Part shown: positions 5,786 through 21,355 of the stretch, piece after piece
Numbering within the stretch: position 1 is the stretch's first letter
Layout: the number at the start of each line of letters is the position of its first letter
Notes under the pieces: model-generated
What the model saw: the letters and a program-made list of their open reading frames with translations, nothing else
Told to the model about the DNA's origin: nothing
The model's database searches: none
Assembly: GCA_016929395.1 (NCBI GenBank)
Contig: JAFGIX010000055.1
Span: forward strand, 1-49,092
Length of the DNA: 49,092 nucleotides
Source of the DNA: Candidatus Zymogenus saltonus
GTDB taxonomy: Bacteria > Desulfobacterota > Zymogenia > Zymogenales > Zymogenaceae
Reading direction: 5' to 3'
Program-made: the position numbers and the translations under genes

Positions 5786-6100
5786 TGACCCGTCGGGATT
5801 TTTGCTACAACAAAAACAGGGAGTTGAGATCAATAAGGTTAATACTTTTACAGCAGAAACCCTTGATGAGATTTAACTGACCCGTCGGGATTTTTGCTAC
5901 AACAAAAACAGGGAGTTGAGGTCAATAAGGTTAATACTTTTACAGCAGAAATCCTTGATGAGATTTAACTGACCTGTCGGGATTTTTGCCCAATAAAAAT
6001 AGAGGGTTGAGGTCAATAAGGTTAATACTTTTATAGCAGAAATCCTTGATGAGATTTAACTGACCTGTCGGGATTTTTGCCCAATAAAAATAGAGGGTTG
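5786..6100. repeat. 92-bp tandem repeat, 3.4 copies
   Basis: Direct repeats begin at 5786, 5878, 5970 and 6061 (periods 92, 92, 91), the last truncated after about 40 bases. Each starts TGACCYGTCGGGATTTTTG and carries a short hairpin. In copies 1-2 the arms are TTTTTG/CAAAAA; in copies 3-4 the sequence has changed but ATTTTT/AAAAAT still pairs. It lies between the acyl-CoA synthetase gene and the repeat-protein cluster, with no coding sense. The rest of the gap (5619-5785, 6101-6296) holds nothing I can name beyond a TATAAT word near 6152. Confidence 0.9.
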
Positions 6101-6296
6101 GGGAAAGAGCGGCTTTTGTTAAAAACCGAAGGATAAACGAATTTTTATTGTTATATAATATCATATGAACAAAATATCATTTTCCACCGTTAAAAGCTTT
6201 AATACCGTTTAGGATCTCAAAATCCCTTAGAACCAATTTATATGCATCTTAGATGAAATAGAATATCCACAAATAACTTCAATAGAGGTGAGATTT

Positions 6297-6704
6297 ATGA
6301 AAAAGACTATTTTATTCCTTATCACTGTGGCCCTGATTTCCACACTCGCTTTGGCGGGGTGCGATAAGCTCTTGGGCATAATCGGACTTGAGAAAAAGAA
6401 GGCGGATACGCCCCCCACTGGCGAGGTTCAGCCTCCCCAGCCGGGAGCTCCGGGAGGAGTCACTCCTGCTCCGGCACCTATGCCGGCGCCTTCGACATCC
6501 CCGGACATGGTAGCCGCGTCCGTAAACGGAAAATATTACAACCTCCTAAGAACAATCTACGTCCCCTCCGACCAGAACAGCTACGGAAACTTCTACGAGT
6601 GGGGCTACTGGAACGGTTCGTCATGGAAGGGACACACAAACCTCCCGCCCGGATACTGGGTCTATGTCTATCCGAACTGGTACATCTGGGGAAGCAGGAG
6701 ATAG
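6297..6704 (+). CDS. Lipoprotein with one GYWVY/YIWG module
   Basis: 135 aa. The N-terminus is a lipoprotein signal peptide with lipobox LAGC (19-22), so the mature protein should be lipid-anchored at Cys22. A Pro/Ala-rich linker (about 37-71) follows, and then a single aromatic-rich module (75-132) running from ASVNGKYYNLLRTIYVP to the tail GYWVYVYPNWYIWG. The same module occurs once in the next protein and eight times in the third. I cannot name the family; function is unknown, and a ligand-binding or surface-structural role is only a guess. ATG 6297 has AGAGG 8 nt upstream; an in-frame GTG at 6288 is less well placed. Confidence 0.85.
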   Translation: MKKTILFLITVALISTLALAGCDKLLGIIGLEKKKADTPPTGEVQPPQPGAPGGVTPAPAPMPAPSTSPDMVAASVNGKYYNLLRTIYVPSDQNSYGNFYEWGYWNGSSWKGHTNLPPGYWVYVYPNWYIWGSRR

Positions 6705-6710
6705 ACGGTT

Positions 6711-6749
6711 AAAGGGGGGTTGGGGTAAGGGCCTCAACCCCCTTTGGTT
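6711..6749 (+). terminator. Possible rho-independent terminator or attenuating hairpin
   Basis: AAAGGGGGGTTG pairs with CAACCCCCTTT (one bulged G) across a short loop and is followed by GGTTTTAAT. It lies between the first and second module genes and might partially terminate transcription, uncoupling their levels. Confidence 0.5.
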
Positions 6750-6779
6750 TTAATAGCCAATATCAAAGGAAAATAGCAG

Positions 6780-7355
6780 ATGAACACATTGAGACTTTTT
6801 GTTAAATCTCTTCTCTTCCTTGCAATCACCGCATTTTTCAGCACAAACGTATTGGGCACAAGCGCCTTTGCCGTAACGGAGAGCGGTTACCTGTCAGGCC
6901 CTAACAAATTCCAGACGTTTACCGTCAACGCCGGAGACGTCGATTTCGTTGAGGTGACCTTCACCTTCCCCAAGGACGGCTGGGATTTTTACGTGAAGAT
7001 AGAGGGGAGGGACGAGAGGAAGGTCCTGGGGAATATTAAGCTCAAGACCACAAACAAGATCCACCTCGGCGGCGGCGGGACATTCTACGTCACTATATAT
7101 ACGAACGGGATGGGGGGAAACTGGACCGCCACATACGACCTTAACGCCGGACTCCCCGACTCGAGGATGACCGGAAACGGTAAATACCACAACCTCCTCT
7201 ATGTCCTCTACCTCCCCGACGAGAGGGAGAGCTACGGCGAATACTACGAGGAGGGATACTACACCGGCTCCTACTACCAGGGATACGACAACCTCCCCCC
7301 CGGATATTGGGTCTACCTTTACCCCTACTGGTATATCTGGGGCAACCAAAGGTAA
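6780..7355 (+). CDS. Exported protein: beta-sandwich domain plus one GYWVY/YIWG module
   Basis: 191 aa. A signal peptide ends near residue 31 (after TSAFA). Residues about 35-121 form a beta-rich region (FQTFTVNAGDVDFVEVTFTF, later GGTFYVTIYTNG) that resembles bacterial pre-peptidase C-terminal (PPC-like) domains; this is a pattern-based guess. Residues 131-188 are the aromatic module, ending GYWVYLYPYWYIWG. No lipobox is seen, so the protein is probably periplasmic or secreted. AAAGGA lies 9 nt before ATG. It sits 75 nt after the lipoprotein gene and 78 nt before the eight-module gene, same strand. Shared module and adjacency suggest a common ligand or assembly. Confidence 0.85.
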   Translation: MNTLRLFVKSLLFLAITAFFSTNVLGTSAFAVTESGYLSGPNKFQTFTVNAGDVDFVEVTFTFPKDGWDFYVKIEGRDERKVLGNIKLKTTNKIHLGGGGTFYVTIYTNGMGGNWTATYDLNAGLPDSRMTGNGKYHNLLYVLYLPDERESYGEYYEEGYYTGSYYQGYDNLPPGYWVYLYPYWYIWGNQR

Positions 7356-7433
7356 CGATTTGACAACAGCGTATAGATAAATCTAATCCCCATTTCAGCG
7401 TTATGATATTAAGTTTTTAATGGGAGGTCTACC

Positions 7434-9401
7434 ATGAATAAAAAGATAGTTGGGACGGTCTTTGTGCTTGTTCTATTCCTCTTTGGATTTCAGGAGTGCC
7501 CGTTGCCCGGCCCCATAGCATCCTCGCCGCAGCCGGGTGTGGAAAAGGCGTCGGTCAACGGCAAGTACTCGGACCTTACAAACGTCATAGACGTACCGGA
7601 CGACAGGAACAAGTACGGCGATTTCTACGAGCTGGGATACAAAGAATGGCGTAAATACAAAGACTACAAAGACCTCGAGTACGGCTACTGGGTCTACGTC
7701 TATCCGAGCTGGTACATCTGGAAGAAGAAGACGTCCGACGAGGAAGGCCCTATCTACGATAAGGCGTCAATTGACAGCAAGTATAGGGGATTGTTGAAGA
7801 CCCTCAACGTTCCGGACGACAGGTACAGCTACAAGGATCTCTACGAGGGCGGTTACAGAACCACCTCCTCCTACAGGGGGAATTACAACCTCCCCAAGGG
7901 GTACTGGGTCTACCTCTATCCCTATTGGTATATCTGGGAGAACAAAACCGGGGACGAAGACTCCGGCTCCACCGACGAAGACAGGGCGAACGTCAACAAC
8001 AAGTACAACAGGCTCCTTAAGACCATCTACGCCCCTAATGACAAAAACAGCTTCAGGGACCTTTATGAGTGGGGGTACAGAACGGTTTCATCCTACAGGG
8101 GAAACTACAACCTCCCCAGGGGGTACTGGGTCTACTCGTTTCCATACTGGTACATCTGGGAGAGCGAGTCGGGATCTTCCTCACCCGATGAGCCTTCTAT
8201 AAACAAAGAAGGAGCCTCGTTTAACGGGAGATACGGGAATCTGAAGAGGACCCTGTACGTCCCCGACGACAGAGACAAGCACGGGACGAGCAAGGAATTC
8301 GGCTACATGACAAACAGCACCTACTACTCCTTTTCGGGAATTCCAAGCGGGTACTGGGTTTACTACTACCCATACATGTACATATGGGGAAGGGTGCAAA
8401 AGCCGGGCCACAATGACGAGAGAAAAGCCTCCTTCAGCGGAAAGTACGGGAACATAAGGGAGGCCCTTTTCGTGCCCAAGGACGAGGAAAAACACGGCAA
8501 GAGCAAGGAGTTCGGATACAGGGAGACGGAAAATTATTACGAATTCAGAAACCTCCCCCCGGGCTATTGGGTCTATTACTACCCCTACATGTATATCTGG
8601 GGGAGCAAGGAAGGCGAAAAGCCGGATTCGGGCTGGAACGTCTGGGACGACGGGTCGGGGTCCGAGCCCCAGCTGGATAGAGAAGGGGCGTCCTTTAACG
8701 GCAAATACAGCAACCTGAGAAAGTCGATGTACATCCCTGACGACAGGAAAAAACACGGCAACAGCAAGGAGTTCGGATACAGGGAGACCAGGGAATACTA
8801 CGACTTCTCGAATCTCCCCCCGGGCTACTGGGTCTATTACTACCCCTACATGTGCATCTGGGGGAGCAAGGAAGGTGAAAAGCCGGATTCGGGCTGGAAC
8901 GTCTGGGGCGACGGGTCGGGATCCGAGCCCCAGCTGGATAGAGAGGGGGCGTCCTTTAACGGGAAATACAGCAACCTGAGAAAGTCGATGTACATCCCCG
9001 ATGACAAGAAAAAACACGGCAACAGCAAGGAGTTCGGATACAGGGAGACCAGGGAATACTACGACTTCTCGAATCTACCCCCGGGCTACTGGGTCTATTA
9101 CTACCCCTACATGTGTATCTGGGGGAGCAAGGAGGGTGAAAAGCCGGATTCGGGCTGGAACGTCTGGGGCGACGGGTCGGGATCCAAGCCCCAGCTGGAT
9201 AGAGAGGGGTCGTCCTTTAGCGGCAAATACAGCAACCTGAGAAAGTCGATGTACATCCCCGATGACAAGAAAAAGCACGGCAACAGCAAGGAGTTCGGAT
9301 ACAGGGAGACCAGAAAATACTACGACTTCTCGAATCTACCCCCGGGCTACTGGGTCTATTACTACCCCTACATGTGCATCTGGGGGAACAAGAGGAAATA
9401 G
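7434..9401 (+). CDS. Exported protein with eight GYWVY/YIWG modules
   Basis: 655 aa. A hydrophobic signal (residues 1-20) is followed by Cys22 in a non-canonical lipobox context (FQEC), so lipidation is uncertain. Eight ~58-residue modules occupy 39-96, 111-168, 185-242, 261-318, 332-389, 419-476, 506-563 and 593-650. Modules 1-3 belong to a Y-rich subtype with LYE and PxWYIW; modules 4-8 carry KHGxSKEFGY and PYMYIWG or PYMCIWG. Charged Gly/Ser linkers separate them, and the last three linkers share KPDSGWNVW. The conserved frame is NGKYxNL, then VPDD, then a tyrosine-rich stretch and LPPGYWVYYYP. No catalytic motif is evident. ATG has GGGAGG 6 nt upstream; a terminator follows at 9582. Function unknown; repeat number and aromatic surface suggest binding or matrix structure (inference). 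Confidence 0.9.
   Translation: MNKKIVGTVFVLVLFLFGFQECPLPGPIASSPQPGVEKASVNGKYSDLTNVIDVPDDRNKYGDFYELGYKEWRKYKDYKDLEYGYWVYVYPSWYIWKKKTSDEEGPIYDKASIDSKYRGLLKTLNVPDDRYSYKDLYEGGYRTTSSYRGNYNLPKGYWVYLYPYWYIWENKTGDEDSGSTDEDRANVNNKYNRLLKTIYAPNDKNSFRDLYEWGYRTVSSYRGNYNLPRGYWVYSFPYWYIWESESGSSSPDEPSINKEGASFNGRYGNLKRTLYVPDDRDKHGTSKEFGYMTNSTYYSFSGIPSGYWVYYYPYMYIWGRVQKPGHNDERKASFSGKYGNIREALFVPKDEEKHGKSKEFGYRETENYYEFRNLPPGYWVYYYPYMYIWGSKEGEKPDSGWNVWDDGSGSEPQLDREGASFNGKYSNLRKSMYIPDDRKKHGNSKEFGYRETREYYDFSNLPPGYWVYYYPYMCIWGSKEGEKPDSGWNVWGDGSGSEPQLDREGASFNGKYSNLRKSMYIPDDKKKHGNSKEFGYRETREYYDFSNLPPGYWVYYYPYMCIWGSKEGEKPDSGWNVWGDGSGSKPQLDREGSSFSGKYSNLRKSMYIPDDKKKHGNSKEFGYRETRKYYDFSNLPPGYWVYYYPYMCIWGNKRK
8601..9383 (+). 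repeat. Three 261-bp tandem units inside the eight-module gene
   Basis: Nearly identical 261-bp units (87 codons, module plus linker) begin near 8601, 8862 and 9123. They are much more alike at DNA level than modules 1-5 are to each other, showing recent in-frame amplification. Confidence 0.85.
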
Positions 9402-13222: not shown

Positions 13223-13261
13223 ATTTACCTCCTTTCGCCCTCGAAAAGGGTCGGTATTATT

Positions 13262-13520
13262 TCCCAGGGATCGGTCTTCTGGCTTAGGGCTTCCTACTCG
13301 CCGCGCCTTCCCAACAAACGGGGCGCGCCTCATGGGATCTCTCGTTGAAATCATCCCGCTTAAATCGCGACGAAGATCTCAAAAACGACTAAGAGATCAG
13401 GCGCAGTCCCCCAACGTTTGCAGTGGCATGTCTGCGGCTTTCGCTCCCAATACAGATGCGGGGCAGCGACGGATTCCAACCGTCTTCCCGTGCATCCCGG
13501 GGATGGTTATTTCATCAAAC
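13262..13520 (-). ncRNA. Cobalamin riboswitch upstream of btuB
   Basis: In minus-strand order: GGGAAGACGGTTGGAATCCG, then the CTGCCCCGCATCTGT core (matching the C-CCCGCaACTGT consensus), a GCCACTGC segment, a GGGAAGGCGC segment, and the B12 box GCCAGAAGACCGATCC near 13264-13283. The 5' end overlaps the last codons of btuD. A peripheral extension (about 13325-13400) makes it longer than typical. The downstream platform looks translational: CCTTTTCG can pair with CGAAAGG at the leader-ORF ribosome site, and CCTCCAC with GTGGAGG at the btuB ribosome site. Confidence 0.92.
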
Positions 13521-16514: not shown

Positions 16515-16700
16515 TCGGGAATCGGTCAGGTTCCTGGCTTGGGGGAGTTAATACGGCCATACTATATAGGCGGGCAAAGATTGCCGCCGACAGCCTAGGC
16601 CGATTATTGGAACTCCCCGCTAACAGTTGCGGGGCAGCGACGGTTTTCCACCGTCTTCCCTGAGATCGAGCTTCACGGCGCCGTTGAATTCCCGGAGTTT
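16515..16700 (-). ncRNA. Cobalamin riboswitch upstream of btuFCD
   Basis: Minus-strand order: GGCGCCGTGAAGCTCG, then GGGAAGACGGTGGAAAACCG, the CGCTGCCCCGCAACTGTTAG core (exact match to the consensus), a GGCTGTCGGCGGC arm, and the B12 box AAGCCAGGAACCTGACC (about 16523-16539). Downstream, CGTGTCTC and GGGACACG can form a further hairpin before the terminator. More canonical than the copy before btuB. Confidence 0.95.
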
Positions 16701-18098: not shown

Positions 18099-18150
18099 CC
18101 TTAAATAGTGTTAAAATAATATAGTGGATATAAACGCTCAAAAAGGGGAG

Positions 18151-18717
18151 ATGTCCGACTTCGAGGCAATGGCGGCCGCGGCCGAGGGGGACAAGTCCGC
18201 CTTTGACGTTATCGTCAAGAGGCACCAGAGCGGACTGATAAACTATTTTTTACGCTACTCGGGAAATCTCGATACCGCCGCGGAGCTCGCCCAGGAGGTC
18301 TTCCTCAAGATCTACAAGGCCAGGGACAGGTACAAGCCGGAGGCGAAGTTTACGACCTACCTGTTCAGGGTGGCCCACAACCTCGCCATCAACGAGCTCA
18401 TCGCAAAGAAGAGGCCCGACACAAGATCCTTAGATAACGAAGACGGGGTCGACCCCCCGGACTACGAGGGGATCGATCCCGAGACGGAGACGATGGCGGC
18501 TGAAACCTCTCAGACCATAAGGGAGGCGCTGTTAAGGCTCAATCCCGCTGAGCGCTCTGTTATTATCCTTAAATACACCCAGGGGATAAGCTACGCCGAA
18601 ATCTCCAAGACCACCGGACGAAGTGTGGCCGGCGTGGAGTCGCTCCTTATAAGGGCAAAGGCAAAGCTCAAGGCGGAGCTGAAAAAGAGGGGAATCACTG
18701 GTGAGATGTTCGCCTGA
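18151..18717 (+). CDS. ECF-type RNA polymerase sigma factor
   Basis: 188 aa. Region 2 spans AFDVIVKRHQSGLINYFLRY through AELAQEVFLKIYKARDRY and FTTYLFRVAHNLAINEL (core binding and -10 recognition). A variable acidic linker follows, then region 4 with LRLNPAERSVIILKYTQG and the helix-turn-helix YAEISKTTGRSVAGVESLL (-35 recognition). No region 1.1 or 3, as in group 4 sigma factors. It probably directs the downstream envelope-protein genes and is held inactive by the anti-sigma factor encoded 296 nt later. The ATG follows AAGGGGAG closely; GTG 18124 is in frame but lacks a ribosome site. I could not identify its target promoter motif. Confidence 0.92.
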   Translation: MSDFEAMAAAAEGDKSAFDVIVKRHQSGLINYFLRYSGNLDTAAELAQEVFLKIYKARDRYKPEAKFTTYLFRVAHNLAINELIAKKRPDTRSLDNEDGVDPPDYEGIDPETETMAAETSQTIREALLRLNPAERSVIILKYTQGISYAEISKTTGRSVAGVESLLIRAKAKLKAELKKRGITGEMFA

Positions 18718-19013
18718 CCTTGAGGGGAGATTTGTCGAAGGTTTATTACTTGGATAGGGGGGAAGGGAGGAAACGGTGTTTTATATAACTACTATTGGGG
18801 ACATGAGCGGAAATGTTTTTCAAGAATCCAAGACTTGGGAGAATCATATTTGAGGGATAATTTTCGATCGACCGAATATTTTCCGCATGATTCTTTAAGG
18901 ATGGCTGTTTATATAGGTGAGAGGACAGTATTATGAGATTATCCGACAAAATAACGGGATACAAAAAACTACTAATGGGCCATGACGCTCTTATATAAAT
19001 TCAGGGCGATATT

Positions 19014-19565
19014 ATGAGACTATACAAGAAGACAATAAAGGGAGAAAAAGGGGCCCACAGGTGGGCCGAGGCGCTCTTCGGGCCGTACCTCGATGGGGAG
19101 CTCGATCCGAAGAGGGAAAAAAAGCTCCAAGACCACATCAAAGAGTGCACTCCCTGCAGGGAGGCGCTTGATCAGGAAAAGGTCCTTATGTCGGGGGTCG
19201 CCGGCGCCCTTAAACCCGTTACTATTCCGGACAGATACGACATCTCGGCTTCCGTGGCGAGAGAGATCAGATCGCTCGAAAATGAAGGGGTATTACACCC
19301 GATCAAGAGGCTGTTCCCGTGGTGGGGGATCAGACCTATGTCTCGTCCCTCCTTCTCCTACGCGATCGCCGCCGCGGTCGGGATATTTATAGGCATCTTT
19401 TCGGGGATACTTACGCCGGGATCGTCCAACACCGCCATATACGTGAACGGCGATTCCTCCTCCGACTCCTCCCTCGATTACATGATTGAAAAGATCTCAT
19501 ATTCCAACGGCGATTCACTGACAAGCTTATACTTCGCAAGCGAAACGGAGGATACAGATGAATAA
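19014..19565 (+). CDS. Zinc-finger anti-sigma factor
   Basis: 183 aa. An N-terminal ZAS-type domain contains H41-x3-C45-x2-C48 (HIKECTPC) after a YLDGELD segment, the usual anti-sigma zinc motif that clamps an ECF sigma factor. One transmembrane helix lies at about 114-133 (FSYAIAAAVGIFIGIFSGIL), placing the C-terminal Ser-rich ~50 residues in the periplasm. The topology matches membrane-bound anti-sigma factors that sense envelope conditions. It is encoded downstream of the sigma gene and overlaps the next gene by 8 nt (ATG inside its last codons), so anti-sigma and Spy-like protein are translationally coupled. Confidence 0.9.
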   Translation: MRLYKKTIKGEKGAHRWAEALFGPYLDGELDPKREKKLQDHIKECTPCREALDQEKVLMSGVAGALKPVTIPDRYDISASVAREIRSLENEGVLHPIKRLFPWWGIRPMSRPSFSYAIAAAVGIFIGIFSGILTPGSSNTAIYVNGDSSSDSSLDYMIEKISYSNGDSLTSLYFASETEDTDE

Positions 19566-20268
19566 AAAAGCATTGATTACCATCCTCGTAGTATCCCTCG
19601 GAATTAACGTGGGGCTCTTCGGCATGTTCCTGTATCGGGGGATTTCTGAAAAGGGATCGGAGCGCATAGGCCCTAGATTACGACCGCCGGAGCCCCGCCC
19701 GGAGCGTCATCTGCCGGGACGGCCCGGATCGGGGCCGCCGGGGCTGCCGAAATGGTTCGAGAGCGAGTGCAAAATAACCGACCAACAGAAAGAGGATATA
19801 AATAAGATTCTCGAAGAGAACAACGAAAAACTCGAAGCCTGCAGAAGAACGATATCCGACAACAGGAAAGAGCTGTTCACCCTCATCAACAAGGAGGACC
19901 CGAACCTCGAGGAGATAGACAAGAAGATCGCCGAGATATCGGCCCTGGAGCTCGATATGGAAAAGATTTTCGTCAGAAAGATCATATCGGTAAGAGGGGT
20001 CCTCACTCCGGATCAGGTCAAACTGCTGGACAGCCACATAGAGAAATATATGCGTCCAGGGAGCAAGTATTCCCCCGGCTTCGAAGGCAAGAGGTACGAT
20101 AACAAAAATTGGAAGGGCGATAGAAGCCATCGACGGGGCTGGAGTAAGAATAAGACAAAAAAGTGGGGAGATGACGAACTCCAGGTCAAAGAGCCGCCGC
20201 AGTCCGAAGTTAGCGAACCGGGAGAAAAGGAGATCGACGGCGGTGAACCCAAAGATATAGAGAAATAA
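19558..20268 (+). CDS. Membrane-anchored Spy/CpxP-like periplasmic sensor or chaperone
   Basis: 236 aa. An N-terminal hydrophobic anchor (residues 6-26) is followed by a Pro/Arg-rich spacer (40-64), then a helical domain with the Spy/CpxP/metal-resistance pattern: CKITDQQKEDINKILEENNE, LFTLINKEDPNLEEIDKKIA and the LTxxQ motif in VLTPDQVKLLDSHI. The C-terminal 70 residues are charged and probably disordered. Family members bind unfolded envelope proteins or divalent metals and often partner with sigma/anti-sigma or two-component systems. Located directly after, and overlapping, the anti-sigma gene, so a sensor role in releasing the sigma factor is a reasonable inference. Confidence 0.8.
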   Translation: MNKKALITILVVSLGINVGLFGMFLYRGISEKGSERIGPRLRPPEPRPERHLPGRPGSGPPGLPKWFESECKITDQQKEDINKILEENNEKLEACRRTISDNRKELFTLINKEDPNLEEIDKKIAEISALELDMEKIFVRKIISVRGVLTPDQVKLLDSHIEKYMRPGSKYSPGFEGKRYDNKNWKGDRSHRRGWSKNKTKKWGDDELQVKEPPQSEVSEPGEKEIDGGEPKDIEK

Positions 20269-20344
20269 GAGCCTTGCTAAATATTTTCACAATTTATCTG
20301 GAGACAAATGAAGCGGGCTTAAACAATAAGGAGAAACAATCAGA

Positions 20345-20668
20345 ATGAGAATTAGAAAAGCAATAAAGCTGCTGACAATATTAGTTGCCGTCTTCGCCTT
20401 CGGCTCCCTCGGCACGAGCTGGTGGAGCGGATCGGCAAGGGCGGAGGTGAGCGACAAGTTGCAGAGCCAAAACACCAGCCGCCAGCGTCTCCGGGACGGA
20501 TCTAACTGCACGACGGGAGGCGGGCTTAACAGCAATGCCAATACCGATGCTTCCGGCAGCGCGAACACCGGAAACGGAAACAGACACAGGGGCGGCAACG
20601 GCAATGGAGGCAGCAGCGGCAATAATTCAGGCGTCAATAAGTCCAAGGGCAAGGGGGGCTCTAAGTAG
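20345..20668 (+). CDS. Small secreted Asn/Gly/Ser-rich protein
   Basis: 107 aa. The signal peptide is predicted to be cleaved at SARA-EV (residue 33). The mature part is low complexity: after TGGGLNSNANTDASGSANTG come runs of Gly, Asn and Ser and a Lys-rich tail. One cysteine (CTTGGG) remains. AAGGAG lies about 11 nt before ATG. No family is recognised. Sandwiched between two Spy/CpxP-like genes in the sigma factor cluster, it is likely an envelope or extracellular component of the same response; composition resembles flexible, possibly matrix-associated polypeptides. Confidence 0.75.
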   Translation: MRIRKAIKLLTILVAVFAFGSLGTSWWSGSARAEVSDKLQSQNTSRQRLRDGSNCTTGGGLNSNANTDASGSANTGNGNRHRGGNGNGGSSGNNSGVNKSKGKGGSK

Positions 20669-20779
20669 AATCAGAGCACCGAAAAAACAAACGAGGACAA
20701 AGCCCGAGTTTCTATTTATATTTGCTTTCTTTGGTATACCAAGCGTAAAAAACCTAAACCGAAAAAAAGGAGAAAAGAT

Positions 20780-21355
20780 ATGAAAAGAGGATTAACAATA
20801 GGAGCTGCGGTTTTTGCCGCGGCGATGCTGATATTTGCGGTCTCGGCATTCACACAGACCGATGAGGCCGCACCTCCGACCCGTCCCTTTTACGGTCCCG
20901 GATACGGGCCCGGATACGGTCCCGGCGAATGCCTGTGGGGATACAACTCGGCCCTTAAGCTGACCGAAGATCAGCAGAAAAAGCTCTCCGACCTTATGAG
21001 AAAGGACGTCACAGATAAATCAAAGATAAGAACGGAGATGCAGCTGAAGCGTATCGAGCTCATGACGCTCTATCAGGCCGACAAGCCCGATCTCAATAAA
21101 ATCGACAGGGTTGAAAAGGAGATCAGGGATCTCAGGGACAAGGAATATGATCTTAAGAAGAAATTCAGGGACAGCGCCCGGAAATTACTGACCAAGGAGC
21201 AGCTCGAGGCCAATCCTTACGCGTTTTGCGGACGTGGCTTCGGCATAGGCCCTGGCTACGGCATGGGCCCGGGGATGGGCCATGGAATGGGATACTACGG
21301 CAAGGGACGTGGTGGTAAAGGCGGTTCCGGCGGAGGTGGATTCTACCGCTGGTAA
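20780..21355 (+). CDS. Spy/CpxP-like periplasmic protein with Gly-rich tail
   Basis: 191 aa. A signal peptide ends near SAFTQ (residue 26). A PGYGPGYGPGE stretch leads into a helical hairpin domain with two LTxxQ motifs (LTEDQQKKL and LTKEQLEA) and the RIELMTLYQADKPDLNKID segment typical of Spy and heavy-metal-resistance proteins. The tail (about 150-191) is rich in Gly, Met, His and Tyr (GPGMGHGMGYYGKG), compatible with metal binding but not proof of it. A strong AAGGAG lies before ATG. Last gene of the sigma factor cluster, followed 26 nt later by a strong terminator. Confidence 0.82.
   Translation: MKRGLTIGAAVFAAAMLIFAVSAFTQTDEAAPPTRPFYGPGYGPGYGPGECLWGYNSALKLTEDQQKKLSDLMRKDVTDKSKIRTEMQLKRIELMTLYQADKPDLNKIDRVEKEIRDLRDKEYDLKKKFRDSARKLLTKEQLEANPYAFCGRGFGIGPGYGMGPGMGHGMGYYGKGRGGKGGSGGGGFYRW

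Follow-up and report, generated by a model that had tools for sequence, protein, structure and literature searches.

Three consecutive genes in the window (the whole stretch of 49,092 nucleotides of Candidatus Zymogenus saltonus that was analyzed) encode exported proteins that carry ten copies (1 + 1 + 8) of a module of about 58 residues, in which Trp and Tyr make up about 20% of the residues. The original prediction had described this module and its 1, 1 and 8 copies in three exported proteins, and we confirmed it with an HMM built from planctomycete and Opitutaceae copies. This HMM contains no copy from the window's genome or its class and is therefore independent of the window. The ten copies scored 56–96 bits, whereas 600 shuffled versions of these proteins gave 7.3 bits at most, which indicates that the module is real and is not an effect of composition. 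The whole genome contains twelve copies: the ten in the window and two in a fourth gene, which is located on another contig (L013, 10799-11392) and encodes a protein with a hydrophobic N-terminus. Our preferred explanation, to which we give an even chance of being right, is that the module is a domain that folds on its own, is mobile between proteins and acts outside the cytoplasm in non-catalytic binding or docking, and that it was locally multiplied.

The three genes are all on the + strand, and the export of their products is predicted from signal sequences that were read by eye. Gene A (6297..6704; open reading frame 6288-6704, with a likely ATG start at 6297) encodes a lipoprotein with a Pro/Ala-rich linker and one C-terminal module (6522..6692), the latter identified by its HMM score and modeled with AlphaFold2. 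By eye, both gene A and its collinear orthologue in genome G002 present a signal and a lipobox of the form [LVI][ASTVI][GAS]C (LALAGC and VLSGC, respectively). A terminator-like hairpin of 15 pairs, identified as a consensus match only, separates genes A and B (6712..6745, +); eight such hairpins were found in the region versus 5.0 expected by shuffling. Gene B (6780..7355) presents a Sec signal (AFA/V, by eye) and combines a PPC-like jelly-roll domain (6873..7163) with one C-terminal module (7176..7343, HMM score), as determined from its open reading frame, the HMM, a structural model and a fold search. Finally, gene C (7434..9401; open reading frame and HMM) encodes eight modules with hydrophilic linkers; its N-terminus is hydrophobic, without a clean lipobox to the eye. 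The predicted set of three carriers, one anchored to lipid, one soluble and one multivalent, is thus supported, with export signals judged by eye. In the intergenic stretch of about 670 bp preceding gene A, we also observed a 92-bp tandem repeat (about 3.2 copies, 5786-6103) that occurs at no other place in the genome.

The modules of gene C, all identified by HMM score, fall into two subtypes. Copies 1–3 (7554..7724, 7770..7940 and 7992..8162) end in WYIW and copies 4–8 end in PYM[YC]IW, with PYMYIW in copies 4 and 5 (8220..8390 and 8433..8603) and PYMCIW in copies 6 to 8 (8694..8864, 8955..9125 and 9216..9386). The distinction between WYIW and PYMYIW, already drawn in the original prediction, was borne out by the phylogenetic tree of the modules: copies 4–8, represented in the tree by copies 4, 5, 6 and 8, form a supported clade (100/99). 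Common descent by tandem duplication accounts for the two subtypes, which may in addition differ in binding specificity, as originally proposed. Copies 6–8 are 93–98% identical as protein and are included in a 261-bp tandem DNA repeat detected by repeat search (8481..9392, +; 3.5 copies with 94% matches, over modules 5–8), which indicates that part of the array is recent. A role of the cysteine of PYMCIW in metal binding or disulphide formation was dropped, as this residue is confined to the three newest copies.

The near-identical 261-bp copies, together with the absence of genes B and C from the collinear locus of G002, are also what one would expect if both genes had arisen recently as side effects of local duplication and did nothing that gene A does not already do. 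We consider this very unlikely: every copy has retained its reading frame and the conserved positions, and the diverged copies differ mostly at third codon positions (12/16/35 between r4 and r5; 12/11/24 between r2 and r3). This excess of third-position differences points to selection on the protein.

We then analyzed the fold of the module. The AlphaFold2 model, made from an alignment of 28 rows, provides the structure prediction that the original prediction had proposed as a check and shows, with high confidence (pLDDT 90.8, pTM 0.79), a small domain rich in beta structure. It is composed of a strand (10-18), a helix (20-26), a second strand (29-35) and a hairpin (49-54/57-64). Conservation is highest in the C-terminal hairpin (G49, W51, V52, Y53, P56, W58 and W61), which carries GYWVYVYPxWYIW, and further conserved positions are Y10, D22, an acidic residue at 31 and G33. 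Judged by strand alternation, the invariant aromatic residues lie on both faces of the hairpin, and they may constitute a hydrophobic core instead of a binding surface. As predicted from the lack of a catalytic signature, no catalytic set is evident.

Database searches agree with the initial view of an unassigned, exported, Tyr/Trp-rich module. Proteins A, B and C matched no family of Pfam or NCBIfam above the curated cut-offs, and single modules gave chance-level matches only (Plk4_PB1, E = 0.12; GliR, E = 0.045). Sequence and fold searches of the PDB yielded no convincing relative of the module, and the fold search against the PDB and viral models returned nothing significant (best Z 2.9), although this negative outcome is no proof that the fold is new. 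The profile searches against databases thus revealed no confident match to a characterized domain family, and our literature searches returned nothing on the motif or on the lineage names tried. WxxGxW and YXWGXW aromatic repeats are likewise Trp/Tyr-rich and exported, but the module differs from them in being a folded domain of about 58 residues, and no Pfam repeat model matches it. A phage, plasmid or viral origin was rejected, since no relative of the module was found in viral contigs, plasmids or phages. In PHROGs, two alignment members matched two unnamed families (E ~0.002); ten members that were re-scanned, perhaps other members than these two, matched nothing. A defense system was also rejected (no PADLOC match).

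The abundance of Trp and Tyr raises the question of whether the module is a small, CBM-like glycan binder, in which these residues would hold a polysaccharide and protein C would act as a multivalent lectin. The sole profile match of the module in the PDB below E = 10 falls in the starch-binding CBM20 region of a cyclodextrin glucanotransferase (1cyg, residues 599–631), where a stretch of 36 positions shares the G-W and VY-YPxWYI order of the module. However, this match is at chance level (E = 0.42) and covers part of a domain that is longer than the module, and similarity did not extend to the whole domain. Two planctomycete carriers (L041 and L059) continue after the module into sequence that appears discoidin-like to the eye and would fit such a role, but Pfam gave no confirmation of this resemblance. 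Moreover, no CBM was found among the Pfam matches of the module up to E = 10 and no carbohydrate enzyme among the carriers examined. We therefore regard the glycan-binding reading as unlikely. More generally, both a glycan and a protein ligand would be compatible with the predicted binding role.

The carriers of the module outside the class of the window's genome are diverse. In one planctomycete class, 14 of 249 genomes possess the module, with one copy each; a draw across the phylum yielded eight of 392 genomes, which are partly the same as those of the class search. In Opitutaceae, the module was detected in one MAG, and a search of the surrounding class returned that MAG only. Nine of the 17 planctomycete carriers that we read are vWA/YfbK_C proteins by Pfam (PF12450, PF00092, PF12034), several of them with an anti-sigma-like N-terminus. 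The others comprise an anti-sigma-like protein without vWA (L046), an LRR protein (L048), a WD40 protein (L051), a cyclase-like protein (L059), a lipoprotein (L060) and uncharacterized proteins. Although nine vWA/YfbK_C proteins end in the same module, the window proteins possess neither vWA nor YfbK_C, and the module is an add-on to those families. Outside the class, the module is usually single and C-terminal: in the carriers read, with the exception of L041, L048, L051 and L059, no more than 40 residues follow it. A C-terminal sorting signal was rejected based on these four proteins, in which the module is internal. The pattern of carriers is that of a mobile domain, which has probably spread in part by lateral transfer.

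The binding or docking role that we favor is based on these unrelated exported carriers, mostly with a single C-terminal module, and on a confident fold without an evident catalytic set. A bolder version of this reading is that the module represents a family with a new fold, outside the catalogues searched, that provides anti-sigma-like/vWA signaling proteins and adhesive proteins of several phyla with a portable unit for surface recognition, and that forms an eight-bead multivalent binder here; we consider it rather doubtful. It is also conceivable that modules pack against each other, such that proteins A, B and C, or the vWA/YfbK_C proteins and their partners, form an envelope scaffold. Three different carriers in one genome, the tandem array and the invariant aromatic residues on both hairpin faces are consistent with such self-association, which we nevertheless judge quite unlikely. 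In most of the other genomes searched, the module occurs exactly once; pairing between modules of different proteins can therefore not be a general property, and a pure module–module assembly is less likely.

The distribution of the module within the phylum of the window's genome is narrow. Among 395 sampled genomes of this phylum, the profile detected the module at E ≤ 0.001 in the family Candidatus Zymogenaceae only, and the relative L014, which has a close module, is assigned to this family as well. Weak matches obtained in the phylum with a single-sequence search (E 0.002–0.008) were not recovered by the profile. The module is present in three of the four genomes of the window's class, and all class modules form one clade in the tree with modest support (81/84). 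Based on tblastn of the window genes, with gene names from our own reading, G002 presents a collinear block composed of gene 2556, an acyl-CoA ligase, the module lipoprotein, Ddl, a TonB receptor, an ABC protein, a permease and a binding protein. This locus contains one module gene and a second copy of the ligase gene, compared with three module genes at the locus of the window. Gene A is thus the common occupant of this locus in the window's genome (G000) and in G002. G001 keeps the block from Ddl to the ABC importer, but its only module gene is located on another contig (L053, 7320-7615). In its own frame, this gene shows neither a clear start nor a clear signal peptide, whereas another frame just upstream of it resembles the signal of a lipoprotein; a frameshift or a sequencing error may be the cause. 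In G003, a genome of the same genus, no module was found in an assembly that also does not contain the Ddl gene of this locus, so this absence says little.

Two other features of this part of the window were observed. Two cobalamin riboswitches on the - strand (13252-13514 and 16528-16661) adjoin the TonB receptor and the BtuFCD-type ABC importer, a gene block that is kept in G002 and G001. In addition, a row of genes at 18124-21355 looks to the eye like an envelope-stress module: its products read as an ECF-like sigma factor, a membrane protein of anti-sigma-like type and two periplasmic proteins similar to Spy/CpxP.

Genes A, B and C were found together nowhere outside the window's genome. 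The original prediction had considered the three genes as a dedicated recognition system and had proposed co-occurrence in related genomes as a check; this part was not supported. G002 contains the lipoprotein gene alone at the collinear locus, the module gene of G001 is located elsewhere and G003 is uninformative. The collinear locus of G002 with its single module gene thus indicates that a three-part system is not conserved. The internal repeats and the single clade of class modules favor a gain of genes B and C over a loss in G002, and we infer that both were added in this lineage, with G002 as the sole informative genome. The set of three genes most likely reflects an expansion, specific to this lineage, of a lipoprotein with one module, as suggested by the one-gene locus of G002, the two copies in a separate gene, the recent repeats of gene C and the fusion in gene B.

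The nature of this fusion was analyzed by modeling the N-terminal domain of protein B alone, as its rows were misaligned in a mixed alignment of the whole protein. The model is a jelly roll of eight strands (pLDDT 88.8) with the fold of PPC/collagen-binding-like domains. In the fold search, Tk-SP (3afg) aligned through its C-terminal jelly roll with Z 11.3 and an rmsd of 2.3 over 91 residues, and the collagen-binding domain (CBD) of the bacterial collagenase ColG (5iku) with Z 9.3, GOLD domains being close behind; the profile of the domain also matches 5iku (E = 5e-4). The Pfam PPC model, however, matched neither protein B nor its 19 relatives up to E = 0.1, and we therefore name the domain PPC-like only. 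This resemblance concerns the N-terminus of protein B, and the aromatic module itself is unrelated to PPC or to the ColG domain. The PPC-like family is much expanded in the class: each of the four genomes encodes many copies, often arranged in tandem, and 20 matches were obtained in G002. Protein B thus joins a domain that is common in this lineage to the module. Members of this family, which gave no Pfam PPC match, include L063-L071 as well as 6873-7163 of the window.

Our preferred explanation would therefore involve the following steps. The module, a unit of about 60 residues made of a strand, a short helix, a strand and a C-terminal beta hairpin, would serve, without catalytic activity, for binding or docking on the cell surface or within the periplasm. 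A lipoprotein with one module occupies a conserved locus in the lineage, and two extra genes would have arisen beside it by duplication and domain fusion. What the analysis shows directly are the copies, the mobility of the domain, its expansion, the one-gene locus of a relative and the confident model. Gene B joins the module to the PPC-like domain, and gene C, with its eight modules on flexible linkers, would provide higher avidity.

The module constitutes an undescribed domain with clear limits, for which there are a confident model and some 30 diverse members; it is absent from the catalogues searched and merits a name. Its description adds to our limited knowledge of envelope proteins in this lineage and in Planctomycetota. 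Since many vWA/YfbK_C proteins of planctomycetes terminate in this module, the nature of its ligand would inform on a large uncharacterized family.
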